A stretch of 40,793 nucleotides of DNA, from contig QHWB01000068.1 in assembly GCA_003222395.1 (NCBI GenBank), positions 1 to 40,793 on the forward strand, written 5' to 3'. This DNA comes from Acidobacteriota bacterium (lineage in GTDB: Bacteria; Acidobacteriota; Vicinamibacteria; Vicinamibacterales; CAVVIG01). Positions 5,489-24,001 of this stretch are shown one piece after another (positions within the stretch are counted from its first letter, which is position 1; each line of letters starts with the position of its first letter). Position numbers and translations under genes: made by a program. The notes beneath the pieces are model-generated. The model was given only the letters and a program-made list of their open reading frames with translations, did no database searches and was not told the DNA's origin.

Positions 5489-6721
5489 TCAGGCCCGCTT
5501 TCCATCGAATCGCCGAATCACGAGCGCACCATTGTTGCCGCCAAACGCCAGCGATGTGGAGACGCCGCACGTCACGGCAACGTTGCGAGCTTCGTTCGCG
5601 ACGACGTCAACGTCGCACTCAGGGTCATCTTCACGGTAATTCACGGTTGGAGGAACGACGCCGTGGGCGATTGACATCGCAACAGCGGCCGCCTCGATCG
5701 CGCCCGCCGCCGCGAGGCAGTGTCCGACCATCGACTTGATCGAGGTCACCGGAATCCGCCGAACGCGTTCGCCGAAGACCAAGCGCATGCCGCGCGCCTC
5801 GGCCCGATCGTTTTGCGGCGTCGCCGTTCCGTGTGCATTCACATGGTCCACGGCGTCGGGAGGCATGCGTGCGGCCCGCAGCGCGTCGTGCACGAGATCG
5901 GCGACTGCATGCCCCTCAGGCTCCGGCGCAGTCGGGTGGTACGCCTCGCAGCGGACGCCGTACCCCGCAATCTCCGCGTAGATACGCGCGGCGCGGCGCC
6001 TGGCGTGCGAGAGATCCTCGAGGACGAGGATGGCGGCCGATTCGCCGAGGTTCATGCCTTTCCGCGTGCGGCAGAACGGGCGGCACGGCTCCGTGTCGAC
6101 GAGGCGCAGCGCGTTGAAGCCACTGAACGTCAGACGACATAACACATCGCTCGCGCCCGCGAGTGCCGCGTCGATCTGGCCCCACCGAATCGCGTCGGCG
6201 CCGTAGCCGACGGCGACCGTTCCTGATGAGCAGGCCGACAGCACGGATGCCTTGAGGCCCTCGAGTCCGAAGGTCGCGGCGACCGTGTCGCTTGGCGTGC
6301 TGGGAAAGTGATTGAAGATCTTCGCGGGAGAGGCGCGTCGGACGCCGACACGGCGCATCTCGGCGAACCACTCCTCATTACGCATCAGATTCGCGGTGCC
6401 CGATCCGAGCAGTACGCCGATGCGCGCGCGGTCGACATCACCCTCGAGCAGGCCCGCGTCATCGAGTGCCTCGCGCGACGCGATGATCGCGACCTGGTCG
6501 CTGCGTGAGAGCCGGCGCCACGCCTTCTCGGAATACGCCGCATCCCGCGTATACGCAGGAATCTCCGCGGCGAGTTGGCTGCGGTATCCCGTGGTGTCGA
6601 ACTGAGTGACGGAGGCGATGCCGCAGCGTCCCGACACCAGGCCGTGCCACACCGCCTCACGCGTCGTGCCGAGCGCGCTCATCAGGCCGATCCCGGTCAC
6701 CACGACGCGCCGATCGGTCAC
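5489..6721 (-). CDS. Beta-ketoacyl-ACP synthase (KAS II/FabF-type), catalytically intact
   Basis: Condensing enzyme that extends an ACP-bound acyl chain by two carbons. The 410 residues have the thiolase fold and a full Cys-His-His triad: C164 in LSACSSGT, H297 in NAHGTATPQND and H334 in SIKSMVGH, with the usual K329. The start is GTG 6719-6721, inside a 4-base GTGA overlap with the PHP gene upstream. It is the last gene of a seven-gene minus-strand operon that begins with a ketosynthase lacking all three catalytic residues. The two probably form a KS/chain-length-factor heterodimer, as in aryl-polyene and type II polyketide systems. Primary FabF is less likely given the companions. Confidence 0.92.
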   Translation of the reverse strand: MTDRRVVVTGIGLMSALGTTREAVWHGLVSGRCGIASVTQFDTTGYRSQLAAEIPAYTRDAAYSEKAWRRLSRSDQVAIIASREALDDAGLLEGDVDRARIGVLLGSGTANLMRNEEWFAEMRRVGVRRASPAKIFNHFPSTPSDTVAATFGLEGLKASVLSACSSGTVAVGYGADAIRWGQIDAALAGASDVLCRLTFSGFNALRLVDTEPCRPFCRTRKGMNLGESAAILVLEDLSHARRRAARIYAEIAGYGVRCEAYHPTAPEPEGHAVADLVHDALRAARMPPDAVDHVNAHGTATPQNDRAEARGMRLVFGERVRRIPVTSIKSMVGHCLAAAGAIEAAAVAMSIAHGVVPPTVNYREDDPECDVDVVANEARNVAVTCGVSTSLAFGGNNGALVIRRFDGKRA

Positions 6722-7731
6722 GTCGATTCGCTTTCGGCAGCGGGGTTAGCGATCGCGACGGCGCCTGTCGGCGTCGCGGCCGCCGCGTCCCATTCGCGGC
6801 GGTACGCGCGGACGCGCGCGGCCTCTGCGCGCTTGTCGAGCGCCGCAACCAGCAGCGGGCTGAACTCGAACGGCAGCGTGACTGCGGAAAACGCCAGGCC
6901 GAGCGCGCGGCGCGGCAGCGACAAGCCAGGCCGTCCGCCGCCGACAAGCGACGCCCAGTAGCGCGCCACCACGCCGTAGATCTCGCGCGCTTCGCGAAGG
7001 GTGCTGCCGTGGCGTCCGTCCGCCCGCGCGCGGCCGGCGCGAAGGCCGCACACGAAGCGATCGCGCGGCGACCCGTGCGACTCCTCACGCTCTTCCTGCT
7101 CATCGCGCCCCGTGACTTCAGTAAACGTCGTCGCGACGCCGGCAAGCGTGTGTGCGTCGCTGCCACCGATCGTCACGAATGGCGGACCGCCCTGCGCGCC
7201 GCACGCGCTGACGATCGCCTGCGCCAGCAGATTGTGCTCGGGCAGCATCGTGCCGTTGCGGACTTCGAAGGCCGGAAACAGCCCGACGAGCATCGCGACG
7301 TACTCCGCAAATGGGATTTGGCCGGTGAAGAAGAAAAACGGATGGTTGAGCGCGTAGAACACGTCACGGCTGCGCAGGTACGCTACCACGTCGTGCACGT
7401 CGCACCGCAGCGGCTGAATCTCGCGGTGGATGCGCTCATCGATGGCGTACGCGCCGATATGCGCCTTGAGCGTCGTGCCGGGAAACGAGCATTCGACCTC
7501 TTCGCTGATGAAGAAGTCTTCGGCGTCAGGGTGCCGATTCAGGAACTCCAGGCAGCCGTCGATGCTGTCGTGGTCGGTGATCGTGACCACGTCCATGCCG
7601 CGCGCTCTCGCCGCGGCGTAGACCGCTTCAGGCTCGGAGTAGCAATCGCGCGCGCGGAGGATGCGCAGGTGCCGCGCATAACCCGAATGATACGAGTGGA
7701 CGTGGAGATCCGCGCGCAGCACGCCGCTCAT
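6718..7731 (-). CDS. PHP-domain metal-dependent phosphoesterase
   Basis: A 337-residue protein with the four-part PHP signature: motif I DLHVHSYHSG (H10, H12), motif II TITDHDSIDG (D53, H54), a central E77/E78 with H91, and a late GGSDAHT. PHP enzymes hydrolyse phosphate esters or anhydrides with a three-metal centre; the substrate here is unknown. The ATG at 7731 sits in a 4-base ATGA overlap with the outer-membrane gene before it, and the stop overlaps the ketosynthase start in the same way. It is therefore translated with the biosynthetic genes. PHP proteins are unusual in aryl-polyene-type clusters. A role in removing phosphate from a lipid-linked or sugar-phosphate intermediate is conjecture. 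The last 100 residues hold no recognised domain. Confidence 0.85.
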   Translation of the reverse strand: MSGVLRADLHVHSYHSGYARHLRILRARDCYSEPEAVYAAARARGMDVVTITDHDSIDGCLEFLNRHPDAEDFFISEEVECSFPGTTLKAHIGAYAIDERIHREIQPLRCDVHDVVAYLRSRDVFYALNHPFFFFTGQIPFAEYVAMLVGLFPAFEVRNGTMLPEHNLLAQAIVSACGAQGGPPFVTIGGSDAHTLAGVATTFTEVTGRDEQEEREESHGSPRDRFVCGLRAGRARADGRHGSTLREAREIYGVVARYWASLVGGGRPGLSLPRRALGLAFSAVTLPFEFSPLLVAALDKRAEAARVRAYRREWDAAAATPTGAVAIANPAAESEST

Positions 7732-10649
7732 AAGGGCTTCAGCAGCAGGATCTGGAGCACCGTCGACCCGGCGCGGCGGTAAGTGTCGGGCAGGAAGCTC
7801 TTCCCAAAGTCGAGCTGCAGAATCGTGTTTCGAGGCGCCCGCAGATTGAGACGCACGCCGGTCCCTGTCACTTGATGCCACCCGTCATCTATCCGTGGAT
7901 CGCGTCCGCTCGCCTGGTCGAGGAAAAGATCGAACCGGTACTGCTCGAACAAATTGAATGAGTACGAGCCGCGGAGCATGGCCAGCTCGGCGAAGCGGAC
8001 CGCCGACGGCACACCGTGCATGCGCGTCGCATCGAACAGACCGAACTGGTACATGCTGAAACGATCGAGACGCCGGCCGCCGAAGTACGTCGCGTTCAAG
8101 TGGATCGTGTTAAATGTCTTGAAGACGAAATCCTTCGACAGCCCGATGTCGTACTTCGTGTACGTGCGCGCATCCGCGTCGAAGTCTGCGCCCGTTCCCC
8201 ACGAGGTCCACTTCGTACGCTGGTACGCGGCGACGTTCGCAGTCGCGGAGTAGCCGCGGCGCCTGAACTCGTAACCGGCGCCCTCGCCGTTGGTGGCCGT
8301 GTCCGACGGTATCGCGAAACCGGCGGCCGTCGTGGGGTCGCGGAAGTACGCATCGTAGTGCAGCTCGTAGTGGCCGGTGAGCTTGTGGAACGGCGTCACC
8401 TGATAGCCGATATTGACGCCGGTCGCGACGGGAATCCGGTTGACGCGTTCGCCGCTCCTCCGTCCGAGAGCGTCGAACACGTCGTCGTTCGATTTCACGG
8501 CGAGACCGAAGAAGTCGATGCTCGCGTCGAACTTGCCGCCCCACAAGTTCGGGTGCTGGAGGTTGCCGAGCGCGATGACTCCGCCGTACAGCAGCGCCAG
8601 CTGCATGTCGCGGTTGAGGAAGTTGAAGTCCAGGATGTCGAGACCGCCGATGGGCAGCGGATAGTCGAACGATGGATCGACGTCCGCGCCAAGCGCGAAC
8701 GCGCGCGCCGACGTGGTCATCTGGTTGCTGACCACCCGCGTCTCCCCTTTCTTCACGAGGTACCGAACCCCTTGGTCGGTGTCGCGGTACATGATGCGGT
8801 TCGACGCGCGGGCCGCCGTTCGCACAGCGTAGAAGTCCGGCACGTTCAGGGAGACGTCCGTGAAGTGCAGCTCCCGTTCGACGAGGACGCTGCGGCCGGC
8901 GATGAGGAACACCTGCTTGCTGACCAGATGGTTCATCAGCCACGCGGGACGTCCCGGAAGTCCGCCGGCCTCCGCGTAGATCTGCGTCTCGTCGTTCGAC
9001 ACGACCGGACCGGCCAGCTTCGTCTCCACTGCTTGGACCTTGAGCCTGACGAAGCTGCGCCGATCGATCCACACCGTACCGCGGTAGAGCGCCCGCCGCG
9101 CATCGACAGGATCGAAACGGATGACGAACGCGGGCCGTCCGCTGACCGGCTCGACGCCGTCCAGGCGATATGTGTAGTCCTCGTTCAACCGGAGATCGAG
9201 GGGCAACGAAAGCACCTTCTCCGGCTGCACGAGCGGAAACGCCGGTCGATTCGCCGTCCATTTCGCGCCGTTCAGCTCGAAGCTCAACTCCTCCCACTCG
9301 ACGCCGACGCGGTCAGCGAACAGACGGTTCTCCGTCACGATGTTGTACGACGGATCCGCGGGTGAAGGATGGAAGTGCTGCTCGATGCGGACGTGCGCGA
9401 TGTAATTCTCGAGCGCCGCGTCCTGCGCCGCCTGCGCCTGTCGGTAGCGGAAGATGATTTCCTCGACGCGCGGCAGTGATTCCTTCTGCGCTTCGCTCGT
9501 GAGTATGTACGTGTCGCCGATGCCGAAGTTGAAATCGAGAACGAGCGGGTGATCGGCAAGCGGCAGCGTGAATCGCAGTCGCTTGCCCGCTCCGTCGGTC
9601 TGGCTGCGCAGCGGTTTCTGGGTCGTTCCGGCCAGCAGATCGCGCACCATCGGGTTCGTCGCGTTCGCGACGCTGATCTCGAGGTCGATTGTCGCGCCCG
9701 CGGCGGGACCGTACACGAGAAACGTATCGAAGCCGGTGAGGCTGTACAGCAGCGTGTGCGCAACCGACGGCGTGACGTCGCGTTCGGCCTGCGTGAAGCG
9801 GAGAACAGCGGCGCGCTCGTCGAGGGTCACCAGATCGGCGGCGATCAGATCCGCGATTCGGCGGGCGGCCGACAGCGCTGCCGCGATCGCCGCCGGCTCA
9901 CCGTCGTACGCAACGACGTGGACGAACGTGCCGAGCGCGCGCGTCCGCGTCTCCACGAACTGCGCTGCTGCCTGTGCGGGATCGGCCGGCAGATGGACCG
10001 GTCCGATGATCGCGAGGCCGGAGGGCTTCTCTTTTTCGATGACCGTCGTCATCGGTCCCGCCGAAGACGGCAAGCCGTCGATCGCGACCGCGTCGATGTA
10101 GGGACCGGCGCCTGCAGCGAACACGCGGGCTTCCCACTCGACCGAGCCCGGGGGAATCGGGCCCTGTACCACGACCGCCGTCGATTCGACGGTGCGCAGC
10201 TGAACGGCCGCGAGTTTCAGCAGATAGACGTAACGATTGACGTCATGCTCGTCACCCGCCGCGACCGCGCCGATTTGATATGCGACCACGGCGCCGCTGC
10301 AACGTTCGGCGACCAAGCGGAGGAATTGACGCCACGCCTCGACGTCGGCATCGGCGGATGGAAACGTCCCGAGCGCCAGTAACACCGCCACATGACTGGA
10401 TTGGTAGATCTTCAGACGTTCCTGTAAGCGGTCCCATGCGGTGCTCGCGGACGAACCGTCGAACACGTGGCGATCGATCGCCAGCCGGGCGACGAGCGGG
10501 ACGTCCGCCGGAGGCGCAGGAATCGGCTCGGCCTCGAGCGACTGCTCGATTGCGACGCCACGGATCGCGGGCGCCGCCAGCGCGGTGGACGCGGCACACG
10601 ACCAGGCCGTTGCGCCGAGCACGGCGGTCACGATACCGCGGACGGTCAT
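7728..10649 (-). CDS. Large exported protein: glycosidase-like domain, LolA-like domain and outer-membrane barrel
   Basis: A 973-residue protein. A signal peptide (about 1-26, ending LAA) is followed by a TIM-barrel-like region (about 28-300) with the alternating strand/helix pattern of clan-A glycosidases. Where the catalytic WNEP-type motif would be, the sequence reads AYQIGAVAAG, so the domain may be non-catalytic. A middle region (about 440-610) resembles the LolA/LolB-like lipid-binding fold of outer-membrane lipoprotein-sorting proteins. The last 320 residues are rich in alternating aromatic and polar strands typical of an outer-membrane barrel. The ATG at 10649 overlaps the deacetylase stop (ATGA), and a frame extension further upstream is an antisense artefact. 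Domain assignments come from composition and motif reading only. The likely role is outer-membrane handling of the cluster product. Confidence 0.65.
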   Translation of the reverse strand: MTVRGIVTAVLGATAWSCAASTALAAPAIRGVAIEQSLEAEPIPAPPADVPLVARLAIDRHVFDGSSASTAWDRLQERLKIYQSSHVAVLLALGTFPSADADVEAWRQFLRLVAERCSGAVVAYQIGAVAAGDEHDVNRYVYLLKLAAVQLRTVESTAVVVQGPIPPGSVEWEARVFAAGAGPYIDAVAIDGLPSSAGPMTTVIEKEKPSGLAIIGPVHLPADPAQAAAQFVETRTRALGTFVHVVAYDGEPAAIAAALSAARRIADLIAADLVTLDERAAVLRFTQAERDVTPSVAHTLLYSLTGFDTFLVYGPAAGATIDLEISVANATNPMVRDLLAGTTQKPLRSQTDGAGKRLRFTLPLADHPLVLDFNFGIGDTYILTSEAQKESLPRVEEIIFRYRQAQAAQDAALENYIAHVRIEQHFHPSPADPSYNIVTENRLFADRVGVEWEELSFELNGAKWTANRPAFPLVQPEKVLSLPLDLRLNEDYTYRLDGVEPVSGRPAFVIRFDPVDARRALYRGTVWIDRRSFVRLKVQAVETKLAGPVVSNDETQIYAEAGGLPGRPAWLMNHLVSKQVFLIAGRSVLVERELHFTDVSLNVPDFYAVRTAARASNRIMYRDTDQGVRYLVKKGETRVVSNQMTTSARAFALGADVDPSFDYPLPIGGLDILDFNFLNRDMQLALLYGGVIALGNLQHPNLWGGKFDASIDFFGLAVKSNDDVFDALGRRSGERVNRIPVATGVNIGYQVTPFHKLTGHYELHYDAYFRDPTTAAGFAIPSDTATNGEGAGYEFRRRGYSATANVAAYQRTKWTSWGTGADFDADARTYTKYDIGLSKDFVFKTFNTIHLNATYFGGRRLDRFSMYQFGLFDATRMHGVPSAVRFAELAMLRGSYSFNLFEQYRFDLFLDQASGRDPRIDDGWHQVTGTGVRLNLRAPRNTILQLDFGKSFLPDTYRRAGSTVLQILLLKPL

Positions 10650-11479
10650 GCGTCGACCGCGCTGAGGCCCAGGACTTCTCCCATCGGCGCGAACGTCGCG
10701 CCGCGAATGATCTGTTCGAGCCGCGTCTGAAAACCGCCCAGGCGAAAGTAGTGCGCGAACTGCCTGGCCAGCGGCAGTGTCACGCGCGGCGGATCGCGAT
10801 CGATTTCCCAAGGATGAACGACGAGTGCAATGGGAATGCCGCGGCGGTTGCGCTCGGCGATCGCAGCGAGGACCCGCGCCGGGTCGCTCATCCGAAGGCC
10901 CCAGCCGACCCCCAGTGGCATGTTCTGCCCGAAGCGGCGGTCGACGAGCGGCGGGAACTCGATGACCTCGCCGTGCGCGGTCGCCCGCACGTGCGGCCGC
11001 TGCGGATACGCAGGATCGCCGACGATCCGCATCGGCGCCATGCTCGAGTCGAACGCGAACCGAGCGCGCGCCAGCACGTCGAGGGCCCACGGCGCTCGCC
11101 CGTTGATCGACCACTCGGGCGCGCGAAAGCCTCGCACGTCGGCGACGCCCGCGGCGGCAAGCGCCGCGCGGCTCTCCGCGAGATCGGCGCCGAAGCTTTC
11201 GGGCGTCAGCTCGTACACGCGCCGATGGAGATGTCCATGCGAGGCGATTTCATGGCCGGCCCGGGCGATATCACGCACGAGCGTCGGATGCCGCGCGGCG
11301 ACCCAGCCGAGCACGAAGAACGTCGCGCGCGTTCCGCACGCATCGAACAGGTCCAGCAAATCGCGCGTTGTTTCCACGACGCGGCTAGGCAGCGTATCCC
11401 AGTGCTCGAAAGCAAACGGACCGCTGATGCCGCAAACGTGGAACCACTCCTCGACGTCGACGGTCAGGCAGTTGCGCAT
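10646..11479 (-). CDS. Polysaccharide deacetylase (NodB homology)
   Basis: A 277-residue carbohydrate esterase family 4-type enzyme, expected to remove N-acetyl groups from a sugar using a metal centre. Motif 1 is TVDVEEWFH (catalytic D8), motif 2 is SHGHLH (H81 and H85 as metal ligands) and motif 3 is GFRAPEWS (R119). The opening DVEEWFHV and overall length resemble the deacetylases found with exopolysaccharide/PEP-CTERM loci. There is no signal peptide, so it probably acts in the cytoplasm on a lipid-linked or nucleotide sugar. It lies 11 bases after the ACP gene and overlaps the next gene by 4 bases. With the glycosyltransferase further on, it hints that the product carries an amino sugar. 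Confidence 0.9.
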   Translation of the reverse strand: MRNCLTVDVEEWFHVCGISGPFAFEHWDTLPSRVVETTRDLLDLFDACGTRATFFVLGWVAARHPTLVRDIARAGHEIASHGHLHRRVYELTPESFGADLAESRAALAAAGVADVRGFRAPEWSINGRAPWALDVLARARFAFDSSMAPMRIVGDPAYPQRPHVRATAHGEVIEFPPLVDRRFGQNMPLGVGWGLRMSDPARVLAAIAERNRRGIPIALVVHPWEIDRDPPRVTLPLARQFAHYFRLGGFQTRLEQIIRGATFAPMGEVLGLSAVDA

Positions 11480-11490
11480 TGGCCGCGCGG

Positions 11491-11760
11491 CTATCCGGTC
11501 GGCTGCCGGGACACCTCGATGAACTCGACGATGGTGCGCACACTGTGCAGTACACGCTTACCGACCTGCTCGTCACTGATCTCCACGCCGAACGAGCGTT
11601 GCAGCTCGAGGACGATCTCGAGCGCGTCGATCGAGTCGAGGCCGAGCCCTTCGTCGAACAGCGGCATGTCGTCCTGGATTTCCGCGGGCGTGATCGGCAT
11701 CCGCAGACACCGCACGATCGCCGTTTTCACCTGATCCAACAGTGTCCCGTTTCCATCCAT
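11491..11760 (-). CDS. Acyl carrier protein
   Basis: An 89-residue carrier protein with the phosphopantetheine site at S43 in GLDSIDALEIV, followed by the acidic recognition helix. It shuttles the growing acyl chain between ketosynthase, ketoreductase and dehydratase. It lies 16 bases after the ketoreductase gene and 11 before the deacetylase gene, within the minus-strand operon. Only one ACP is seen in the cluster, whereas aryl-polyene clusters of Proteobacteria often have two. No phosphopantetheinyl transferase is present in the window, so one encoded elsewhere must activate it. Confidence 0.93.
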   Translation of the reverse strand: MDGNGTLLDQVKTAIVRCLRMPITPAEIQDDMPLFDEGLGLDSIDALEIVLELQRSFGVEISDEQVGKRVLHSVRTIVEFIEVSRQPTG

Positions 11761-11776: not shown

Positions 11777-12526
11777 TTACATCAACCCGCCGTCGACGCC
11801 GATGATCTGACCGGTGATGTAGCTCGCCGCCGGCGACGCGAGGAAAGCCACGAGCGGCGCCACCTCCTCTGCGTTCCCCGTGCGGCCGAGCGCGACGTCG
11901 CGCAGCAACTCCTGTCGTTTCTCTTCCGACAGCGCGCTCAGCATGTCCGTCTCGATGAGCCCGGGCGAGACGGCGTTCACGAGCACTCCCTGGCGCGCGC
12001 ACTCGCGCGCGAGCGTGCGCGTCAGGCCGACGAGACCAGCCTTCGACGCAGAGTACGCCACCTGACCGATCGCGCCGACGTCGCTGCTCGCCGAGACGAT
12101 GTTGATGATCCGGCCCCATCGCCGCAGCAGCATCTCGCGGATGACGGCGCGGATGCACAGGAACGCGCCGTTCAGGTTCGTTTCGAGGACCTCGTTCCAC
12201 CGATCGCGCGTCATGAACACGATGAGGCCGTCGCGTACGATCCCGGCGTTGTTGACGAGAATGTCGATCGGCCCCAGCTCGCTCCGGACCTGCTCGAAAA
12301 ATGTCGTCACGGACGCCTCGTCGGTCACATCGCACGGCGCCGCATACGCGTTCGCACCGTGCTGTTTCACCAGGGCGATGGTCTCCCGCGCGGCGTCCTC
12401 GCGCGCGCGATAGCAGATCGCTACGGAAGCGCCGCGCCGCGCGAGCGCCGTCGTGATGGCGCGGCCGATGCCTCGCGATCCGCCGGTCACGACCGCAACG
12501 CGGCCGTTGAGGCTGAATTCGTCCAT
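11777..12526 (-). CDS. fabG: 3-oxoacyl-ACP reductase (FabG-type)
   Basis: Short-chain dehydrogenase/reductase that reduces the beta-keto group of the ACP-bound chain with NAD(P)H. The 249 residues show the nucleotide-binding TGGSRGIG (14-21), NNAG (92-95), and the catalytic S145, Y158 and K162 at the spacing found in E. coli FabG. The ending [11 protein letters not shown] is also typical of FabG. It lies between the ketosynthase-like gene (54 bases upstream) and the ACP gene (16 bases downstream), so it is the cluster's own ketoreductase rather than a housekeeping copy. Confidence 0.93.
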
Positions 12527-15915: not shown

Positions 15916-15961
15916 GCGCCGTGGAGCGAGGCTATCATCCGACTTGCGGTTGATCAAGCGC

Positions 15962-18430
15962 ATGAGCGGCGAGCCGATGGCCCCCGTGCTCCTGTTCGCA
16001 CGCAGACACGCACGGCTGGTCGTTCTTTCGACGATCGGCGCGGCGCTCGTCGGCGCATGGCTGGTCTCGCGCGTGTCGTTCGACGCGAACATCCTGCGTC
16101 TCCTGCCGCAGCGGTCGCGTTCTGTTGCGAGCTTCCAGACATTCCTTCGCGACTTCGGGAGCCTCGATCATCTCTACGTCCTCTTCGAAGCCGCCGACGG
16201 CATCGGAGAACATACGGGTCTCGTCGATGCCTACGTCGCCGCGCTGCGGCGCGCACCGGACATCGAGTCGGTCGACGCACAGCTCTTCGAACCCGGCAAG
16301 GACTGGTCGTACTTGTCGGACCGCGTGCTCTATTTGCTCGGGCCGGACGGTGCGCGGGCCGCGCTGGATCGGTTCAGCCCCGACGGCGTAGAGCGAGAGC
16401 TGCTGCATGCTCGCGATCTTCTGTCAATGCCCGCGCCACAGGTCAAGGCGATCGTGCAGGAGGATCCGCTCGGACTGCTGGCCCTGACGCGCGATCGACT
16501 AGGGCGGCGAAACGGGCTCATTGCGGCCGACCCGACGCAGGAAGGCTACGTCAGCGCCGACGGCCGGAGTCGCCTCGTCATCGTCAAGCCCAAAGGCGCG
16601 CCGTTCGACGCCGACTTCTGCAAGGAACTGTTCCGGCGCCTGTCCTCCGTCGAAAGTGAAGCGCGGCACAGAGTTGGCGCGTCGGATCCGGAGGCCGCGA
16701 CGGTCACGATCCAAGTGGCCGGCGCCTATCGGGTTGCGCTCGAGGCCGAAGATCTGATCCGGCGCGAAGGCGTTGTCAATGCAATCGGATCGCTGGCGCT
16801 GCTGCTCATCATGGTGTTCGCTCTGTTTCGCACGCCATGGATCATGCTGTACGGATCGATTCCACTCGCGCTCGCGGCGTTGCTCACGCTCGGCGTCAAC
16901 GGCGCGGCGCGCGGCAGCCTGACGCCGGCCACAAGCGGATCCGCTGGCATGCTGTTCGGTCTCGGCATCGACGGCATCGTCGTGCTCTACATGCGGTATC
17001 TCGAGCAGCGGCGACCCGATTCGTCGCCGGAATGCGCCATCCGTCGCATGGCCGGCACGGCGTCGAGCGTCGGACTTGCGCAAATGACGACGGCGGCGAC
17101 GTTCCTTGCACTGCTGTTCGTCGATTTCCCCACGCTGCAGGAGCTGGGTGCGCTCGTCGGCGTTGGGATTCTGATCTGCTGCGGCTTCACGCTCGTCCTG
17201 TTGCCGGCCCTGCTGGGGCGGGGAATCGGCTGTCAGACCGGCCGCCCGTTGGCTTCGGCGTGGCTCGGCCGCTTCGTCTCGCGGGCGGCAACGCCGCTCG
17301 TCTGGGGCGGCGTCGTCGCGACAGTCGCGCTCGGCGCCGCGGCGGTTCGGCTGCGGCTCGATCCCGGCATCGAGAAGCTTCAAGCGCGGACGTCCGCTAC
17401 TGACCTCGAGGAGAAGATCGCGGCCCGGTTTTCGCTGCCGCGCGACGTGCTGCTCGCCGTCGGCGAAAGCCAACATCTGGAGCCGCTCATCGAGGCCGGC
17501 GAACGGCTGACACGCAGCCTCGATGCAAGGATGCCCTCCCGAATCGTCGACACCGGCATAGGCCTGCTGTTGCCCTCGGCGCGCAGTCAGTCGGCGGTCG
17601 CCGAGATGCTGTCGAAATCACGTATCACGCCCGCAAGCGCACGGGAGGCAATCGAGACCGCGGCGGCGCGAATCGGCTTCCGGCCCGGAAGCTTCTCGCC
17701 GTTTCTCGATCGGCTGCCGCGGCTGCTCGATCCGGCGCTGCGCGTGACCTACGAGGGACTGGCCGCGAGCGGCATCGGATCGATCCTGTCGCGCTTCGTC
17801 GCGCGGCGTGACGGACGTTTCGAGACGGTCACATATCTGTATCCGCGAGGCAGCGTCGATTTCGACGCGCTCGGCCGCCTCACGCGGGCGTCCGATCCCG
17901 CCCTCCAGCTCACAGGCCTGCCCATCATCAATCACGAGCTGCGATCGCGCCTCCTCTTCCAGTTCGCGAAGGGTATCGCGATTGGCACGATCGTGGTCGC
18001 GATCCTGATCTACGCGGTCTTCCGCAGCCTCCGGCTGACGCTGCTGGCGCTCGCGCCGACCGCCGTCGGCTTCGTCTGGAGCGCCGGCGTGCTCGCGCTC
18101 GCGCGCGTCGAGCTGGACCTGTTTTCGCTGTTCGCGGCGGTCACGTTCATCGGCATCGCGGTCGACTACGGGATCTACGTGCTCTATCGCTATGCGATCG
18201 AAGGTCACGAGGCCATGCCCGAAGTGCTGGCGCGGATCGGCGCCCCAATCATGATCGCCTGCGCGACGGCGCTCGTCGGCTACGGGACGCTCGTCCATTC
18301 GAGCTACGGACCCTTGCGAGTTTTCGGCATCGTCTCGATCGTGACGCTCGCATGTTGTCTGGTGACGTCAATCGTGTTTCTGCCTGCGTTCGTCATCCAC
18401 TCGGAGCGATGGTCGTCATCTGCGCGGTGA
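15962..18430 (+). CDS. MMPL/RND-family lipid exporter
   Basis: An inner-membrane transporter of about 822 residues with the two-repeat RND layout. One transmembrane helix near residue 20 is followed by a periplasmic domain and five helices (about 270-420). A second helix (about 440), a second periplasmic domain and five more helices (about 650-815) complete it. A charged intramembrane motif is visible in each half: FGLGIDGIVVLYMRY, and GIAVDYGIYVLYRYA with an Asp and Tyr that fit proton relay. MMPL-type exporters in aryl-polyene clusters move the lipid-linked product toward the outer membrane. ATG 15962 was chosen, with ATG 15977 also possible. The 3' end overlaps the glycosyltransferase gene by 22 bases. 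Confidence 0.9.
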   Translation: MSGEPMAPVLLFARRHARLVVLSTIGAALVGAWLVSRVSFDANILRLLPQRSRSVASFQTFLRDFGSLDHLYVLFEAADGIGEHTGLVDAYVAALRRAPDIESVDAQLFEPGKDWSYLSDRVLYLLGPDGARAALDRFSPDGVERELLHARDLLSMPAPQVKAIVQEDPLGLLALTRDRLGRRNGLIAADPTQEGYVSADGRSRLVIVKPKGAPFDADFCKELFRRLSSVESEARHRVGASDPEAATVTIQVAGAYRVALEAEDLIRREGVVNAIGSLALLLIMVFALFRTPWIMLYGSIPLALAALLTLGVNGAARGSLTPATSGSAGMLFGLGIDGIVVLYMRYLEQRRPDSSPECAIRRMAGTASSVGLAQMTTAATFLALLFVDFPTLQELGALVGVGILICCGFTLVLLPALLGRGIGCQTGRPLASAWLGRFVSRAATPLVWGGVVATVALGAAAVRLRLDPGIEKLQARTSATDLEEKIAARFSLPRDVLLAVGESQHLEPLIEAGERLTRSLDARMPSRIVDTGIGLLLPSARSQSAVAEMLSKSRITPASAREAIETAAARIGFRPGSFSPFLDRLPRLLDPALRVTYEGLAASGIGSILSRFVARRDGRFETVTYLYPRGSVDFDALGRLTRASDPALQLTGLPIINHELRSRLLFQFAKGIAIGTIVVAILIYAVFRSLRLTLLALAPTAVGFVWSAGVLALARVELDLFSLFAAVTFIGIAVDYGIYVLYRYAIEGHEAMPEVLARIGAPIMIACATALVGYGTLVHSSYGPLRVFGIVSIVTLACCLVTSIVFLPAFVIHSERWSSSAR

Positions 18431-19083
18431 TCGCCGCGTTCAACGAAGAACGGCACGTCGCCGACGTGGTGGCCGGCACTCGCGCTCACGTCGCCGATGT
18501 ACTCGTCGTCGACGACGGGTCGTCCGACGAGACGGCAGCGCGGGCACACAAGGCCGGCGCGCGCGTGGTGCGGCACGATCGCAACCGCGGCAAGGGGTCG
18601 GCCGTGCGTACGGGGCTGGCGCACGCGCTCAACGGGCCGTACTCACACGTGTTGTTTCTCGACGCCGATCTGCAGCACGATCCCGCTGAGATCCCGAAGC
18701 TCGTCGAGCGCGCGGAGCACGGCATCGGCGATCTGGTCCTCGGCGAGCGCGAGCTGGTGAGGCACGCGATGCCTGCGGCCCGCTATTACTCGAACGTGAT
18801 TGGCAGCCGTATCCTCTCGGCTCTGATCGGCGCCGAGGTTGGAGACTCGCAGTCGGGGTTTCGCCTGATCCGCACCGACTGTTTGCGCGGCGTCAGCCTG
18901 ACCGGAACCGGATACGAGATTGAGACCGAGATGCTGATCAAGCTCGTGAGAGCGGGCGCGCGGATCGAGCGCGTTCGCGTGGGGCGATTGCAGTACGAGG
19001 GCGCGCGGAGCAAGATCCGGCCCGTCCGCGACACATTTCGTACGTGCATGCTCGCGCTGGCGTATCGATTCTTTCGAAGATGA
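18409..19083 (+). CDS. Family 2 glycosyltransferase (dolichyl-phosphate-mannose-synthase-like)
   Basis: A 224-residue GT-A enzyme. The nucleotide-sugar site reads VVDDGSSDET (33-42), the metal-binding DAD is at 85-87 in FLDADLQHDPAE, and the acceptor region around 140-165 reads GDSQSGFRL, as in polyprenyl-phosphate sugar transferases. It has no C-terminal membrane anchor, so it is a short DPM1-like form. It probably moves one sugar from a nucleotide donor to a lipid or to the polyene head group. It is tightly coupled: 22 bases of overlap with the exporter and a 4-base ATGA overlap with the acyltransferase. Confidence 0.9.
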   Translation: MVVICAVIAAFNEERHVADVVAGTRAHVADVLVVDDGSSDETAARAHKAGARVVRHDRNRGKGSAVRTGLAHALNGPYSHVLFLDADLQHDPAEIPKLVERAEHGIGDLVLGERELVRHAMPAARYYSNVIGSRILSALIGAEVGDSQSGFRLIRTDCLRGVSLTGTGYEIETEMLIKLVRAGARIERVRVGRLQYEGARSKIRPVRDTFRTCMLALAYRFFRR

Positions 19084-20000
19084 TGCGCAGCGACTCGAAC
19101 CTCTCGGCGATCCGCTGGCACGCAGGGGCGCTGAATAACGGCGTCGTCTTCGGCGCGACCTACTACGGCGTGACGCACCTCCCGCGCGCCTGCAGCTACG
19201 CAATCGGCCACGTCGGCACCTGGCTGGCGTACCGCCTGATGCAGGATGGAACCCACGCGGTCGTCGACAACCTTCGCGCCATCAGGCCCCAGGCGAGCGA
19301 GCGCGAGCTGCGGTACCTCGCACTGCTCACGTATCGCAGCTATGCGCGCGACACCATCGACTTCATCCGCAGTCTCGAGATGGACCGCGCGCGCCTCGCG
19401 CCGATGATGGCGTCGTTCGACGCCGCCGCCCTCGACGATCTCCTCGCGCAGGGCCGCGGCGTTCTCCTCGTCGGCGGTCACTTCGGCAACTGGGAGCTGG
19501 GCGGCGTCGCGCTTCGGCTGCTGCACGGATATGCCCTTACGGTCATCGGCAAGGCCGAGGCAAGCCCGATCGTCGGCGCGTTTCGCCGCCGGATGCGCGA
19601 CTCGTTCGGCATCGAGACGCTCGAGATCGGCCAGATGCTCGAGACGGCGCTGCGGATTCGCGGTTTGCTTTCGGCGAATCGGATCGTCGCGATGCTGCTC
19701 GATCGGCACATCGGCCGCGACTGCGTGGAGGTGACGTTCTTTGGCCGGTCGACGCCATTCCTGCGAACGCCGGCGATGATCGGCTACCTTTCGGGTGCGC
19801 CGCTGCTGCCTGCGTTCATGATTCGCCGGCCCGATGGACGCTTCGATGGCCTGTTCGGCGAGCCGATCCGTGTCGACGCGTCACAGTCGACGGAGAAGGC
19901 CGTTCATGCGGCGACGCAGACGTTCGCGCGTCAGCTCGAGCATCACATCCGTGAGCGGCCGCATCTCTGGTATCAGTTTTATCCGTATTGGCGGACGTGA
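19080..20000 (+). CDS. LpxL/HtrB-like lipid acyltransferase
   Basis: A protein of about 306 residues of the bacterial lipid A biosynthesis acyltransferase family, with the HxxxxE catalytic motif as GGHFGNWEL (H134, E139) and the later LDRHIGRDCVEVTFFG segment. An N-terminal hydrophobic stretch (about 20-55) would anchor it to the inner membrane. In aryl-polyene clusters this type of acyltransferase is proposed to attach the polyene to a lipid or sugar carrier; lipid A acylation is the alternative. ATG 19080 overlaps the glycosyltransferase stop (ATGATG), and 19083 is also possible. It ends exactly where the convergent dehydratase gene ends. Confidence 0.87.
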   Translation: MMRSDSNLSAIRWHAGALNNGVVFGATYYGVTHLPRACSYAIGHVGTWLAYRLMQDGTHAVVDNLRAIRPQASERELRYLALLTYRSYARDTIDFIRSLEMDRARLAPMMASFDAAALDDLLAQGRGVLLVGGHFGNWELGGVALRLLHGYALTVIGKAEASPIVGAFRRRMRDSFGIETLEIGQMLETALRIRGLLSANRIVAMLLDRHIGRDCVEVTFFGRSTPFLRTPAMIGYLSGAPLLPAFMIRRPDGRFDGLFGEPIRVDASQSTEKAVHAATQTFARQLEHHIRERPHLWYQFYPYWRT

Positions 20001-20435
20001 TTACGCCCGTGGAGCGACGTCGGCGAGCGTGACGCTGCCGGTCGCCACCTCGACACCGTCGGCGAGGACCTCGCCCTCGATCCTGATCAACATCCCGATG
20101 CGGCGCACAACGCGCGCGCGGGCCTCGAGCTGCTGGTTCGGGCGCGCGGCGCTCGGAAACTTGAACGGTCCGAGCGCGGCGAGCCGCAGCATCGGCGTCG
20201 CGCGGCGCTCGTCGCTGGCCGCGGCGAGGCCGCCTGTTTGCGCGAGCAGCTCGATCAGCACGATCGCGGGGACGACGGGGTCGCCCGGAAAGTGGCCCTG
20301 AAAATACCAGTCGTCGGGATGAGCGATGCGCAGCCCGCGCGCCGACATCCCGGGCACGATGTCCTCGATGGCTTCCACCAGGCGCATGGGCGGTCGATGT
20401 GGCAGCGCGTCGACGAGCGAACGACTTGCAGTCAT
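20001..20435 (-). CDS. 3-hydroxyacyl-ACP dehydratase (FabZ-like)
   Basis: A 144-residue hot-dog-fold enzyme that removes water from the 3-hydroxyacyl-ACP and leaves a trans double bond. The catalytic H48 in YFQGHFPGDP and E62 in VLIELLAQ match FabZ, and the opening LPHRPPMRLVEAI is characteristic. With no enoyl reductase in the cluster, the double bonds it makes would persist, which implies a polyene. It is a lone minus-strand gene sandwiched between plus-strand genes. Its start is 25 bases from the divergent AMP-ligase start, and its stop abuts the acyltransferase stop. Confidence 0.92.
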   Translation of the reverse strand: MTASRSLVDALPHRPPMRLVEAIEDIVPGMSARGLRIAHPDDWYFQGHFPGDPVVPAIVLIELLAQTGGLAAASDERRATPMLRLAALGPFKFPSAARPNQQLEARARVVRRIGMLIRIEGEVLADGVEVATGSVTLADVAPRA

Positions 20436-20460
20436 CTGGACAACCGGGCATTCTAACGCC

Positions 20461-21924
20461 GTGTCGGCGAGCGTGATTGCCGAACGGTTTGGTCAGGTGG
20501 CTCGCGACCATCGCGATGCGGCGGCCGTCCGCGTGCTGCCGGACGGCCGCGCGATTTCTTTTGCCGATCTGCGCTCCGATTTCTCCACGATGAGCCGGGC
20601 GTTCGCGGCTGCGGGCCTCGACCGCGCGTCCGCGATCGTGTCGCTCGTCGGTAATCGACCCGAGTTCTTCCCACTGTTCGCCGCCTGTATGGACGTGGGC
20701 GCCGCGCTGATCCCGCTCGGCGACGCGACGGACGCGGAGGTGGCAGCGCTCATCCAGCGCGCGGGCGCGAGCGCTGTCGTCGTCGAGCGGCCGATGCGGC
20801 TGCGCGCAACACGCGAACTGGCGCTCCCTGGAGGCCTGCGTCTGCTGCGGCTCGCCGATCCGGCGGTGGCGCCTGAGTACGGCGAGTCTGTCGTCCTCAA
20901 GCTGACGTCCGGATCGACCGACCTGCCGAAAGCGGCGATCGCGCCGGAGCGGTGTCTGGTCAACGACGGCCGCCACATCATCGAGGCGATGGGCATCACG
21001 CGCGCCGACGTGAACTTCGGCTGCATTCCACTCTCGCACTCGTACGGCCTCGGCAACCTGGTGATGCCGCTCCTCTGGCAGGGAACATCGGTGGCGCTGC
21101 GGCAGTCGTTCAATCCCGCGCAGTTCGTCGAGGACGTCGCGGTCAGTCAGGCGACCATATTCCCGGGCGTGCCGTTCGTGTTCGAGCGGATGAAGACTCT
21201 TGGACTCACGAGCCTGCCGGTGTCGCTCCGGTTGTTGATCACGGCCGGGGCGCGCATCGATCCGGCCACGGTTCGGTGGACGCGCCGGCATCTCGACCGC
21301 AAGCTGCACTCGTTCTACGGCAGCAGCGAAACCGGCGGCATCGCGTACGACGATTCCGACGAGGTCTCCGATCCGCTCGACGTCGGGCGGGCGATGCCCG
21401 AAACGAAGGTGACAATCCGCGTTTCGGACCATGCCGCGTCCGACGGCCGCATCTTCGTCGCCGGAAATGCTGTCGCGAGCGGTTATGCCAGAGCCGGCGC
21501 CGACGCCGTCGCCCAATTCTTCGAGGGTGGCTTCGTGACCGGCGACCTCGGTCACTTCGATGATCGCGGCCGCCTCTTCCTCACGGGGCGCGCATCGCCG
21601 CTCGTCAACGTCGCGGGCCGCAAGGTCGATCCCGCAGAGGTCGAGCGCGCGCTCGTCGACCTGCCAGGCATCTCCGATGCGCGCGTGTTCGGCATGAGAT
21701 CCGACACCCGGGGCCAGGAGGTCGTGGCGTTCATCGTGCGCTCCGACGACTCGCTGACGCCGCTCGCCATCCGTCAGCGCTGCGCGATGACGCTGTCGAC
21801 GTACAAGATCCCGAGACGATTCGTCTTCGTCGATCGCTTTCCGGTCGATCCGCGCGGCAAGGTCGACTGCCGCGCACTCGAGGTTCTCGCGGCCGAGAAG
21901 ACTGACGTGCTCTGGATCCCATAG
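20461..21924 (+). CDS. Acyl-AMP ligase (ANL superfamily)
   Basis: A 487-residue adenylate-forming enzyme that would activate a carboxylic acid with ATP and load it onto the ACP or CoA. The P-loop reads LTSGSTDLPK (148-157), with Asp where Gly is usual. The SYG acceptor-loop region (SHSYGLGN), FYGSSETGG, TGDLGHFDDRGR and the hinge GRASPLVNVAGRKVDP follow. The catalytic C-terminal lysine is in PRGKVD. Its likely job is priming the KS/CLF system with a starter acid, like ApeH-type ligases. The starter is unknown, because no ammonia lyase or chorismatase gene is nearby. GTG 20461 is the start; the frame before it runs into the divergent gene. Confidence 0.88.
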   Translation: MSASVIAERFGQVARDHRDAAAVRVLPDGRAISFADLRSDFSTMSRAFAAAGLDRASAIVSLVGNRPEFFPLFAACMDVGAALIPLGDATDAEVAALIQRAGASAVVVERPMRLRATRELALPGGLRLLRLADPAVAPEYGESVVLKLTSGSTDLPKAAIAPERCLVNDGRHIIEAMGITRADVNFGCIPLSHSYGLGNLVMPLLWQGTSVALRQSFNPAQFVEDVAVSQATIFPGVPFVFERMKTLGLTSLPVSLRLLITAGARIDPATVRWTRRHLDRKLHSFYGSSETGGIAYDDSDEVSDPLDVGRAMPETKVTIRVSDHAASDGRIFVAGNAVASGYARAGADAVAQFFEGGFVTGDLGHFDDRGRLFLTGRASPLVNVAGRKVDPAEVERALVDLPGISDARVFGMRSDTRGQEVVAFIVRSDDSLTPLAIRQRCAMTLSTYKIPRRFVFVDRFPVDPRGKVDCRALEVLAAEKTDVLWIP

Positions 21925-21972: not shown

Positions 21973-23280
21973 ATGCGCGATTCGGCGGTCGACTGTGACG
22001 TCATCGTGATCGGCGGCGGGCCGGCCGGATCGACGGCTGCGGCGTGGCTTGCTCGCGCAGGGCGATCGGTCATCCTCTTCGAGCGAGACATGTTCCCCCG
22101 CTTTCACATCGGTGAATCGCTGCTCGCGTCGGTCAACGACGCGCTCGCCGCAATCGGGGCGGCCGACATCGTCCGCGCGGCCGGCTTTCCGCAAAAATGG
22201 GGCGCGACCTTCATGTCGGCCGACGGCATCGTCGAGCGGTTTGCCGATTTCGCCGAGGCACCCGGCGTCCCGATGCCACAGACGTGGCAGGTGCCGCGGG
22301 CGACGTTCGATCAGTTGCTGCTGCGACACGCGGCAGCGAGTGGAGCCGACGTGCGTCAAGGCTGTCGCGTGCTCGACGTTGCCGTCGAGGCCGGCGGCGT
22401 GACGGCAACGATTCAGGCGACCAACGGAACCAGCGCCGCGCACGCCGTTCGCGGGCACGCCGTGATTGACGCGTCCGGCCGCGGTTCGGTCCTCTCGCGA
22501 AAATTACGCTTGCGGATCGACGAACCACGGCTCGCCAATCTCGCCGTGTTCTCCCACTACTCGAACGTGCCGCGGCGCGAAGGGCGGCGCGCGGGCGACA
22601 TCCGCATTGTCTCGCGTCCGGATCTCGGCTGGTTCTGGCTCATTCCGATTTCCGCGGAGCTGATGAGCGTAGGCGTGGTGCTTCCGCGCACGGCCGCCCG
22701 CGGATTCCAGGGAGTGGACCACGGCGCGCTGCTCGAACGGGCGATCGGCGAGACGCCAGCCGTCGCGGCGCTGCTCGCGAACGCACGGCGGGAATGGCCG
22801 GTGCGGATCGAGAAGGACTTCTCGTTTGGATCGCGCGCGTACGCCGGCGATCGCTGGCTGCTTGCGGGCGATGCCGGGTCGTTTCTCGATCCCGTCTTCT
22901 CGACCGGGGTGGCAATTGCCGTTGAATCCGGCCTCGAAGCCGCGCAGGCCGCGGCCGACGGGCTCGCCGCCGGCGATCTGTCGGCGCGGACGTTCAGGCG
23001 GTACGCCCGGCGTCAGTATCAACGTTATCGTTCGTTTCGCCGATTCGTGCTCGGCTTCTACACGCCCGAGTTCCGCGAGCTGTTTTTCGCGGAGAATCCG
23101 CCGCTGCGAATGTTCCGCTCCCTCGTCACCGTGTTTGCCGGATACTGGCGGCCGCCACTGACGACGCGCATGTGGGTGGCGGCGTTCTTCGTCCTCGTCC
23201 GCCTACAACGCTGGATCCGGATCGCGCCCAGGCTCGGTGCCCATCCGATGGAGACGCATGGCCCAGCCGCTGCCGGCTGA
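21973..23280 (+). CDS. Flavin-dependent halogenase-like oxidoreductase
   Basis: A 435-residue FAD protein. The dinucleotide-binding GGGPAGS is at 14-20, the FHIGESLL block at 45-51 and the second FAD contact GDAGSFLDPVFSTG at 299-312. It also has WFWLIP (220-225), which fits the WxWxIP signature of flavin-dependent halogenases, and a lysine (K75) in FPQKWGATF at about the place of their active-site lysine. Halogenase-like enzymes occur in xanthomonadin-type clusters, whose products are brominated, so a halogenated polyene is possible. Hydroxylases and geranylgeranyl-reductase-like proteins share much of this fold and remain alternatives. GTG 21967 is another possible start. It overlaps the methyltransferase gene by 23 bases. 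Confidence 0.85.
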   Translation: MRDSAVDCDVIVIGGGPAGSTAAAWLARAGRSVILFERDMFPRFHIGESLLASVNDALAAIGAADIVRAAGFPQKWGATFMSADGIVERFADFAEAPGVPMPQTWQVPRATFDQLLLRHAAASGADVRQGCRVLDVAVEAGGVTATIQATNGTSAAHAVRGHAVIDASGRGSVLSRKLRLRIDEPRLANLAVFSHYSNVPRREGRRAGDIRIVSRPDLGWFWLIPISAELMSVGVVLPRTAARGFQGVDHGALLERAIGETPAVAALLANARREWPVRIEKDFSFGSRAYAGDRWLLAGDAGSFLDPVFSTGVAIAVESGLEAAQAAADGLAAGDLSARTFRRYARRQYQRYRSFRRFVLGFYTPEFRELFFAENPPLRMFRSLVTVFAGYWRPPLTTRMWVAAFFVLVRLQRWIRIAPRLGAHPMETHGPAAAG

Positions 23281-24001
23281 AACGCGGTACTGGAGTCGCT
23301 CCGACGATCGCCAGCGAGTCGTGAACGCGTTGTTCAATCGAGCCGCGTGCCACTACGACCGCATCTGCCGGCTGATGTCATGCGGCTCGGGACAGCGCTA
23401 CCGCCGCGATGCGCTGAGGCGCGCGGGGGTGCAGCGCGGCATGTGCGTGCTCGACGTCGGGATTGGCACAGGATTGCTCGCGCGCGAGATTCTGGACCTC
23501 ACCGGGCCGTCCGGGCGCGTGGTCGGTATCGATCCCTCCCCGGCGATGATGGCGATAGCGCACGAGCAGCTCGCCGTCGGGCTCGTGCAGGGCATCGGCG
23601 ATCGGCTGCCGTTCGGCGATGCCTCCTTCGATTTCGTGACGATGGGATATGCGCTGCGTCATGTCGCCGATCTCGACGCGGCGTTCGACGAGTACCGCCG
23701 CGTGCTGAGGGCCGGCGGCCGCTTGTTGCTGCTGGAGATTACGCCGCCGGAGTCGACGCTCGGCCTCGCGCTGGCGCGCACCTACTTCGGCACCCTCGTG
23801 CCGCTCGTCGTGCGCATCGCGACGCGTGACTCCGCAGCCGCCGATTTGATGCGGTTTTTCTGGGACAGCATCAACCTCTGCGTGCCGCCTGACGCAGTCC
23901 TCGCGTCGCTGCGAAGGGCCGGCTTCGCGGCGGCGCGACGGTCCGTGGTGCACGGCGTTTTCAGCGAATACACCGTCGGCACCACCCATTCGCACGAATG
24001 A
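23258..24001 (+). CDS. UbiE/MenG-like class I SAM methyltransferase
   Basis: A 247-residue methyltransferase. The SAM-binding motif I is VLDVGIGTGL (64-73), with the acidic GIDPSP at the end of strand 2 and the MGYALRHVADL segment typical of the UbiE/Coq5 group. The N-terminal FNRAACHYDRI also matches that group. It would transfer a methyl group to a ring carbon or hydroxyl, perhaps on the aromatic or polyene head. Menaquinone methylation is the alternative, but the position at the end of the AMP-ligase/halogenase-like run argues for a pathway-specific role. The start ATG 23258 lies inside the end of the preceding gene. Confidence 0.88.
   Translation: MAQPLPAETRYWSRSDDRQRVVNALFNRAACHYDRICRLMSCGSGQRYRRDALRRAGVQRGMCVLDVGIGTGLLAREILDLTGPSGRVVGIDPSPAMMAIAHEQLAVGLVQGIGDRLPFGDASFDFVTMGYALRHVADLDAAFDEYRRVLRAGGRLLLLEITPPESTLGLALARTYFGTLVPLVVRIATRDSAAADLMRFFWDSINLCVPPDAVLASLRRAGFAAARRSVVHGVFSEYTVGTTHSHE

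Follow-up and report, generated by a model that had tools for sequence, protein, structure and literature searches.

A probable xanthomonadin-like aryl-polyene lipid locus with a linked Tes/Mss-type radical-SAM paralogue in an Acidobacteriota order that includes Luteitalea

We analyzed a candidate aryl-polyene-type lipid biosynthesis locus in an Acidobacteriota genome of 7.74 Mb, using as the window the whole of contig C29 (40,793 bases). Genes were called from open reading frames, third-position G+C and homology, and the window proteins were assigned to families by Pfam and NCBIfam profile searches. These searches revealed one locus of 17 genes at positions 5489-26019. Its minus strand encodes a ketosynthase (KS), a PHP protein, a large outer-membrane protein, a polysaccharide deacetylase, an acyl carrier protein (ACP), a ketoreductase (KR), a chain-length-factor-like KS partner (CLF), a B12-binding radical S-adenosylmethionine (radical-SAM) enzyme and a dehydratase (DH). 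The plus strand encodes a LolA-like carrier, an MMPL exporter, a GT2 glycosyltransferase, an LpxL-like acyltransferase, an AMP ligase, a halogenase, a UbiE-type methyltransferase and a Tes-like radical-SAM enzyme, the last four of which follow each other in an operon-like manner with gaps of 48, -23 and 119 bases (Table 1).

A sequence-only reading of this DNA had listed an intact KS, a degenerate partner, ACP, KR, DH, AMP ligase, LolA, MMPL, GT2 and LpxL-like genes as the core of an aryl-polyene-type pathway, and all of these were located by the Pfam and NCBIfam searches, with Pfam also confirming the B12 radical-SAM enzyme and the NodB-type deacetylase named as unusual partners. The PHP phosphoesterase of that list was supported by an NF038032 match under the cut-off, but a Pfam search of its product was without a match. 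The large outer-membrane protein was likewise present, and is probably located in the outer membrane, but did not turn out to be a marker of the cluster (see below). As had been claimed, no ammonia lyase, chorismatase, thioesterase or separate enoyl reductase was found among the genes called at 5489-24001; one Pfam match of the KR, PF13561, carries an enoyl-reductase name, but NCBIfam puts the KR closest to 3-oxoacyl-ACP reductases. The earlier gene list was correct as far as it went, but it had overlooked the halogenase and the UbiE-type methyltransferase and had ended one gene short of the Tes paralogue, so that the most interesting part of the locus sits just beyond its coordinates.

Table 1. 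Genes of the locus, with their positions in the window and the matches on which the assignments were based.
Feature	Position	Strand	Basis
KS alpha, Cys-His-His intact	5489..6721	-	PF00109/PF02801; own group, SH-aLRT 99
PHP / CehA-McbA-type hydrolase	6718..7731	-	NF038032 E 2e-14, 53.7 bits, cut-off 80 not reached
973-aa protein, probably outer-membrane	7728..10649	-	PF03888; PslG/GH39-like N-terminal domain, RseB/LolA-like middle, predicted beta-barrel end
Polysaccharide deacetylase (NodB family, DUF3473, XrtA type)	10646..11479	-	PF01522, PF11959; TIGR03006 232.5 bits, under cut-off 276.2
Acyl carrier protein	11491..11760	-	PF00550; E. coli ApeE 40% identity
Ketoreductase (FabG/ApeQ-like)	11777..12526	-	PF13561, PF00106; TIGR01830; ApeQ 37% identity
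Chain-length-factor-like KS partner (CLF), 407 aa, catalytic residues lost	12581..13804	-	Pfam, alignment, tree
LolA-like periplasmic carrier	13785..14456	+	PF03548 E 8e-13; NF053544 flexirubin LolA2 53.3 bits, under cut-off 125
B12-binding radical-SAM enzyme, HpnR-like	14416..15963	-	PF02310, PF04055; TIGR04367 219.9 bits, under cut-off 650
MMPL/RND lipid exporter	15977..18430	+	PF03176; ApeM weak homology
GT2 glycosyltransferase (polyprenyl-phosphate sugar type)	18409..19083	+	PF00535; GT2 half of ApeJ, E 2e-18
LpxL-like acyltransferase	19083..20000	+	PF03279; acyltransferase half of ApeJ, E 4e-10
Hot-dog dehydratase (FabZ/FabA-like)	20001..20435	-	PF07977; E. coli Ape proteins: no match
AMP ligase (aryl-acid:ACP ligase type)	20386..21924	+	PF00501; start uncertain, 20461-20497 also possible
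Flavin-dependent halogenase (CndH/CmlS type)	21973..23280	+	3e1t E 1e-59; NF033113 206.9 bits, under cut-off 900
UbiE-type methyltransferase	23258..24001	+	PF01209
Tes/Mss paralogue, radical-SAM	24121..26019	+	NF045702 314.5 bits, under cut-off 450; PDB 7tol E 1.6e-63

The active sites of the KS and its partner were compared by alignment with their relatives. The KS cysteine and first histidine were kept in 14 of 14 sequences and the second histidine in 13, the fourteenth sequence being truncated at that point. In the partner both catalytic histidines were replaced, by Asn and Glu, in all 19 sequences including that of the window, and the cysteine had been changed to alanine in 16 of these 19. 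A KS/CLF tree of 54 rows placed the 14 KS sequences on one side of a branch with a Shimodaira-Hasegawa-like approximate likelihood-ratio test (SH-aLRT) value of 99 and grouped the 20 partners at 100, both apart from FabF of the window genome and its relatives. This placement, proposed earlier as a check on the idea of a dedicated pathway, thus gave groups of their own to both proteins and did not join either with housekeeping FabF; a plain FabF duplication was ruled out by this tree together with the synteny described next. The best solved relative of the KS was 9s5h.

We studied the recurrence of the locus in 162 genomes of the order, using the CLF as query and regarding as a cluster genome any with a CLF homologue of at least 40% identity, the FabF background lying at about 30-35%. 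The regions flanking the CLF were fetched and annotated with the window proteins, with presence thresholds set by us. Twenty of the 162 genomes had the CLF, several as contig fragments only; the window's own genome is counted among them, and the match in G420 is partial. Over all fetched regions, ACP and LolA were found in 19 of these 20 genomes, the deacetylase in 18, KS and the large outer-membrane protein in 17, MMPL in 16, KR, GT2 and LpxL in 15, DH in 14 and a window-type ligase in 12. Gene order was kept in relatives from several families, and because the block is syntenic in these relatives the cluster is not a chance assembly of genes. The companions travel with the CLF wherever contigs are long enough, many of the missing genes being explained by contig ends (G426, G466, G414, G116); the real exception is G413, where the 20 kb viewed contained the CLF, the KS and a weak UbiE match only. 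The proposal that gene order be compared across Acidobacteriota was in this way answered in favor of companions conserved together, G413 excepted.

When the CLF alignment was used to scan a named genome collection, there were 186 matching stretches, 17 of them encoding a relative. Fourteen of those are close (41-68%) and represent clusters already counted, giving no further cases, while the remaining ones were a 37% relative in gp22 Acidobacteria bacterium and matches in Chloroflexota (33%) and Mesorhizobium (29%) that group with FabF in the tree. The plasmid search with the CLF gave 30 records, all at 28-33% identity and either FabF-like or unannotated. Two side observations belong here. A distant cluster relative (L148), outside the close group, was seen in gp22 Acidobacteria bacterium AA2 with ligase, PHP, ACP, KS and CLF; the sole Tes match of that genome lies on another contig than these genes, the two contigs measuring 40,434 and 58,878 bases. 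At L098 (G229:C187) a split LpxL and a partial ligase are followed by a second GT2 tail and a full LpxL, which could be a partial duplication or an assembly fault. KS-CLF genes in Acidobacteria have been reported before, according to the part of PMC10132072 available, and no aryl-polyene clusters assigned to Acidobacteria were found in the accessible portions of PMC7750434 and PMC11220033. Literature searches for a Luteitalea pigment and for a ladderane KS structure had no usable result among the matches listed.

The enzymes that could supply an aromatic starter were found to differ among the relatives. A chorismatase of the FkbO/Hyg5 type (PF21168) occurs in 11 of the 162 genomes, in ten of them over the cut-off, and eight of those ten carry the cluster. 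It directly adjoins the DH gene in G379, G325, G367, G125, G514 and G436 and lies one gene away in G515; that of G116 is on a different contig, in a related second locus. Four f88 genomes (G427, G429, G430, G431) instead have an aromatic amino-acid lyase together with a second ligase, the lyase lying at most about 2 kb from Tes; here the Pfam match was made for G429, the lyases of the other three being 75-97% identical to it. For the sister genome G229, neither a chorismatase nor, as far as its regions were viewed, a lyase was found. A ligase tree of 19 rows placed the ligases of the window and G229 as sister to those of the chorismatase genomes G379 and G515 (SH-aLRT 84) and joined the lyase-linked ligases in a group of their own (SH-aLRT 99). 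Because the window ligase nests among chorismatase-linked ligases with the lyase-linked ones apart, the ancestral pathway was most likely aryl-primed. Starter enzymes have been swapped between close relatives, and the absence of an own starter enzyme is true of the window but not defining for the cluster family. As a separate observation, the gene at 32185-33699 (+) in the window, about 6 kb beyond the cluster, encodes a tannase/feruloyl-esterase-like protein by reading of its translation; enzymes of this type free phenolic acids and may be a source of aromatic starters.

The halogenase of the locus carries WFWLIP at 220, FLDPVFSTG at 304 and QKWGATF at 74, with the lysine of the latter aligning with the Lys of 3e1t, which we take to be CndH. 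The motifs WxWxIP and FxxPxxSxG and the active-site lysine, which we assume to be the hallmarks of a flavin-dependent halogenase, are hence all present. Matches at E <= 1e-40 were found in 60 of the 162 genomes, and homologues of at least 50% identity occur, besides the window, in G420, G515, G116, G470 and G477. A single contig in each of the latter three carries, besides the halogenase, a chorismatase, a ligase, a KS, a homologue of UbiE (45-47%) and a partial match to the deacetylase (30-35%); the halogenases of G420 and G515 do not share a contig with such a set. The loci concerned (L204, L205 and L206, in G116, G470 and G477) appear as a second, related cluster type on one contig. The contig shared with chorismatase in three genomes ties the halogenase and the UbiE-type methyltransferase to aryl-polyene head groups. 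Within the 20 cluster genomes a close halogenase homologue was found in four and UbiE in two, and these two enzymes are not general companions there.

The Tes paralogue was followed in the same 162 genomes. When homologues of any kind were scored at E <= 1e-20, 121 of the genomes had some Tes/Mss homologue, because of which membrane-spanning lipids are probably common, and indeed normal, in the order. The cluster-type Tes was found in 14 genomes, namely 13 of the 20 with the cluster versus one (G399) of the 142 without it (Fisher p 2e-13, kinship not corrected). Left out of that count were the Tes of G367:C61 (61-62%), which forms a long branch outside both groups of the tree, and a second Tes match of G414. 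The window genome also has a separate housekeeping Tes (G000:C54:192797-194626). A Tes tree of 31 rows had 14 cluster copies on one side of a branch with SH-aLRT 84 and 14 housekeeping copies in a group at 100, and the radical-SAM motif CxxxCxxC and all 11 invariant cysteines were kept in 14 of 14 aligned Tes homologues, ten of them cluster-linked. The gene directly follows the ligase in G379, G515, G436, G420, G229 and G468. A cluster-type Tes truncated at the contig border was seen at L125 (G413:C81) in tandem with the housekeeping copy, perhaps as the trace of the duplication. According to the accessible parts of the respective papers, Tes links the ends of lipid tails through C-C bonds (PMC9433317) and Mss has been proposed to couple iso-C15 acyl chains (PMC13274423). 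No report of aryl polyenes combined with membrane-spanning or tetraether lipids was found among the matches listed in a literature search that covered few subscription papers.

Two further genes behaved much as the Tes paralogue. The HpnR-like B12 radical-SAM enzyme, probably a C-methylase, was found at E <= 1e-90 in ten of the 162 genomes, all within the 20 cluster genomes (10 vs 0), a 49% copy in G427 lying close to Tes instead of between LolA and MMPL. A ladderane pathway was rejected, since this radical-SAM protein reached only 59.8 bits with the ladderane model TIGR04072 (cut-off 360). The PHP protein was present at 47% identity or more in 11 genomes, the window included, all of them with the cluster (11 vs 0); weaker homologues occur in 17 further genomes, one being cluster genome G414, whose partial match (46%) was scored as absent. 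Tes and PHP were found jointly in 11 of the 20 cluster genomes, and both were missing in seven, including the fragmentary G426 and G414, the four g14 genomes and, separately, G116. Tes without PHP was seen in two (G466, G413), and PHP without Tes in none. The Tes paralogue, the HpnR-like enzyme and the PHP protein are thus novel companions nearly confined to the cluster genomes.

The large outer-membrane protein gave a different picture. An AlphaFold2 model from seven sequences had a mean predicted local distance difference test (pLDDT) score of 60.7, with good confidence for an alpha/beta-barrel-like N-terminus and weak confidence for the rest, and Foldseek gave PslG (4zn2, E 1.3e-9) as the best match, with weaker ones to barrels such as TamA and LptD. 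The sole Pfam match in the window member is a short one to MucB/RseB in the middle of the protein. Across the phylum, 138 of 396 genomes encode a homologue, and the 12 loci viewed outside the order had the cluster in none, two of them having single MMPL, KR or KS homologues; with this spread and these loci, the protein was ruled out as a cluster marker. In its own right this is a widespread acidobacterial family whose members unite a glycosidase fold like that of PslG with a part similar to RseB/LolA and with a predicted barrel. In the cluster, the protein might serve as the outer-membrane acceptor replacing ApeN. Elsewhere in the window, two tandem metallo-beta-lactamase-fold genes, partly alike, lie at 1850-3663 (+) by reading of their translations.

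We consider it likely that the locus encodes a dedicated xanthomonadin-like aryl-polyene lipid pathway of this Acidobacteriota order, Luteitalea included, that has lost its own starter enzyme in the window genome. The earlier suggestion of a dedicated aryl-polyene-type lipid pathway was hence borne out by the recurrence in 20 of 162 genomes, the companions and the KS/CLF tree. Gene content, conserved synteny, the state of the active sites, phylogenetic separation and co-occurrence are what the analysis shows; every chemical step of the following scheme is inferred. The AMP ligase would load the ACP with an acid of the hydroxybenzoate type that no cluster enzyme makes, whereupon KS/CLF, KR and DH would extend this acid with malonyl units to a conjugated polyene, as expected for these enzyme families and from their homologues in the E. 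coli pathway. Decoration of the ring would fall to the halogenase and the UbiE-type methyltransferase, as their linkage suggests. Judging from the homology of ApeJ, LolA and MMPL, the GT2 enzyme, the deacetylase and the LpxL-like acyltransferase may attach the polyene to an amino-sugar glycolipid, with MMPL, LolA and the large outer-membrane protein as its route to the outer membrane. The alkyl part would be modified by both the HpnR-like enzyme and the Tes paralogue, of which Tes would most likely couple two sp3 chain ends. That such coupling takes place on the aryl-polyene lipid is a tentative proposal, and it is possible, though we would not count on it, that the Tes paralogue, the B12 radical-SAM C-methylase and the PHP protein act on a halogenated aryl-polyene glycolipid so as to yield a tail-coupled polyene lipid or a bola-shaped one that spans the membrane.

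Several findings weigh against this interpretation. A family search gave no chorismatase in the window genome, no UbiC was found there, and its single aromatic lyase, tried as starter enzyme, is followed by urocanate hydratase and was rejected as HutH. A weak chorismatase match (E 0.035) was also discarded, being a wrong-frame match across a GT2 gene. The identities to E. coli Ape proteins are only 21-40%, the single DH of the window has no match to ApeI or ApeP, the match of LolA to ApeL is weak, and neither the thioesterase ApeK nor the LolB-like ApeN had any match among 20 window proteins by Pfam, NCBIfam or blastp. E. coli ApeO and ApeR form long branches in the KS tree, with the window KS placed with neither. 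No halogenase homologue was found at E <= 1e-40 in the sister genome G229. The cluster-type Tes was not found in the four cluster-bearing, Luteitalea-like g14 genomes nor in G116, so that the core pathway can do without it.

With these points in mind we weighed other explanations. The core could make an aryl polyene while the three companions, Tes paralogue, HpnR-like enzyme and PHP protein, have their role in ordinary membrane phospholipids of the iso-diabolic-acid or branched glycerol dialkyl glycerol tetraether (brGDGT) type, being merely co-located or co-regulated. The presence of some Tes/Mss homologue in most of the order, the g14 clusters lacking the cluster-type copy and the G413 copy that adjoins a housekeeping one all speak for this explanation, but the host retains a housekeeping Tes, and the bias toward cluster genomes is marked for Tes (13/20 vs 1/142) as well as for the HpnR-like and PHP proteins; we find it conceivable but doubtful. 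It may also be that the chain is not aryl-primed here, the chorismatase having been lost and the ligase loading a fatty or other non-aromatic acid, so as to yield a halogenated polyene fatty acyl glycolipid. The lack of a chorismatase, UbiC or dedicated ammonia lyase in the genome and the fairly long branch that the ligase has in common with that of G229 agree with that idea. We nevertheless regard it as unlikely, as the ligase tree places the window enzyme within the chorismatase-linked group, chorismatases elsewhere have the halogenase and UbiE partners beside them, and in E. coli, according to the available part of PMC8253772, the 4-hydroxybenzoate likewise comes from UbiC outside a cluster that has no starter enzyme of its own.

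A lipo-amino-sugar resembling a Nod factor was the third product considered, in which GT2, NodB and the acyltransferase would make an acylated amino sugar and KS/ACP would supply an unusual unsaturated acyl chain. Nod-factor synthesis indeed uses a gene set of GT2, NodB, acyltransferase and KS/ACP. The AMP ligase, CLF, LolA and MMPL, though, match aryl-polyene clusters, and the deacetylase is already part of the arcuflavin cluster as far as the accessible text on it goes, which makes such a product very improbable. The xanthomonadin-like aryl-polyene lipid pathway remains our preferred reading of the locus.

Aryl-polyene clusters were placed in Proteobacteria, Bacteroidetes and one spirochaete in the accessible part of PMC3949708, and in anaerobic clostridia in that of PMC12144888. 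The present analysis adds a version that is conserved and described in detail, from a soil group that is major and little cultured and whose close relatives differ by swapped starter enzymes. As a testable lead, the linked Tes paralogue points to C-C coupling of lipid tails also in a specialised lipid, with a bearing on how bacteria make the membrane-spanning lipids used as climate proxies. If true, a membrane-spanning aryl polyene would unite two lipid types that we found described only apart, namely aryl polyenes and diabolic-acid-type lipids.

Compared with known single enzymes, the HpnR-like protein has the hopanoid C-3 methylase as its best NCBIfam match and shares its B12-binding and radical-SAM domains, but at 219.9 bits stays under the cut-off of 650; the Tes paralogue shares the Fe-S cysteines and 7tol homology of Tes/Mss, but forms a separate cluster-linked group and reaches 314.5 of 450 bits. 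As for flexirubin, LolA2 is the best NCBIfam match of the window LolA and FlxB is among the best five of the KR, but both cut-offs were missed (53.3/125 and 255.3/340 bits), and an ammonia lyase is found in the f88 relatives only. With the aryl-polyene cluster of E. coli CFT073 (apeA-R), blastp gave homologues of KS, CLF, ACP, KR, MMPL, AMP ligase and, weakly, LolA, while the window GT2 and LpxL correspond to the two halves of ApeJ. No window protein matched ApeK, ApeN (DUF3261), ApeG or the two dehydratases, and the CLF is annotated with 240 aa in E. coli compared to 407 aa in the window. Neither cluster has an internal starter enzyme, as far as the available source on E. coli tells.

The closest resemblance was to the arcuflavin/xanthomonadin clusters of Azoarcus sp. 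BH72, Xanthomonas and Lysobacter. Of the features that mark aryl-polyene/xanthomonadin loci, the KS with its degenerate partner, the ACP/KR/DH/ligase set, the GT2/LpxL/LolA/MMPL set and, for the xanthomonadin subtype, a halogenase in the cluster are all present in the window, and a starter enzyme in the locus, whether a XanB2-type chorismatase or an ammonia lyase, which is not a universal feature, is absent. Table 1 of PMC3949708, in the part available, lists for arcuflavin a deacetylase (arcN), an outer-membrane protein (arcC), a halogenase (arcA) and a methyltransferase (arcM), and further a chorismatase, LolA, an exporter, a glycosyltransferase and acyltransferases; the accessible part of PMC3691225 gives a dolichyl-phosphate-mannose-synthase-like gene and a KS-CLF pair for the Lysobacter pigment cluster. 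Because of these precedents much of the partner list that had seemed odd is not so. Shared with these clusters are, to the extent that the sources at hand cover them, KS, KS-like partner, KR, DH, ACP, AMP ligase, glycosyltransferase, acyltransferase, LolA, exporter, deacetylase, outer-membrane protein, halogenase and methyltransferase, while their chorismatase is without a counterpart in the window but present in its relatives. The suggestion that the missing starter enzyme and the atypical partners could signify an undescribed class was therefore partly right. It does not fit with relatives having a chorismatase (eight) or a lyase (four), with the deacetylase, outer-membrane protein and halogenase known from arcuflavin, or with the equally starterless E. 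coli cluster, but the HpnR-like enzyme and the PHP protein, and the Tes paralogue that it had not mentioned, are without precedent in the literature examined. In comparison to the arcuflavin/xanthomonadin clusters, the window thus adds the Tes, HpnR-like and PHP genes, as well as a protein that combines PslG-like, LolA-like and barrel parts.

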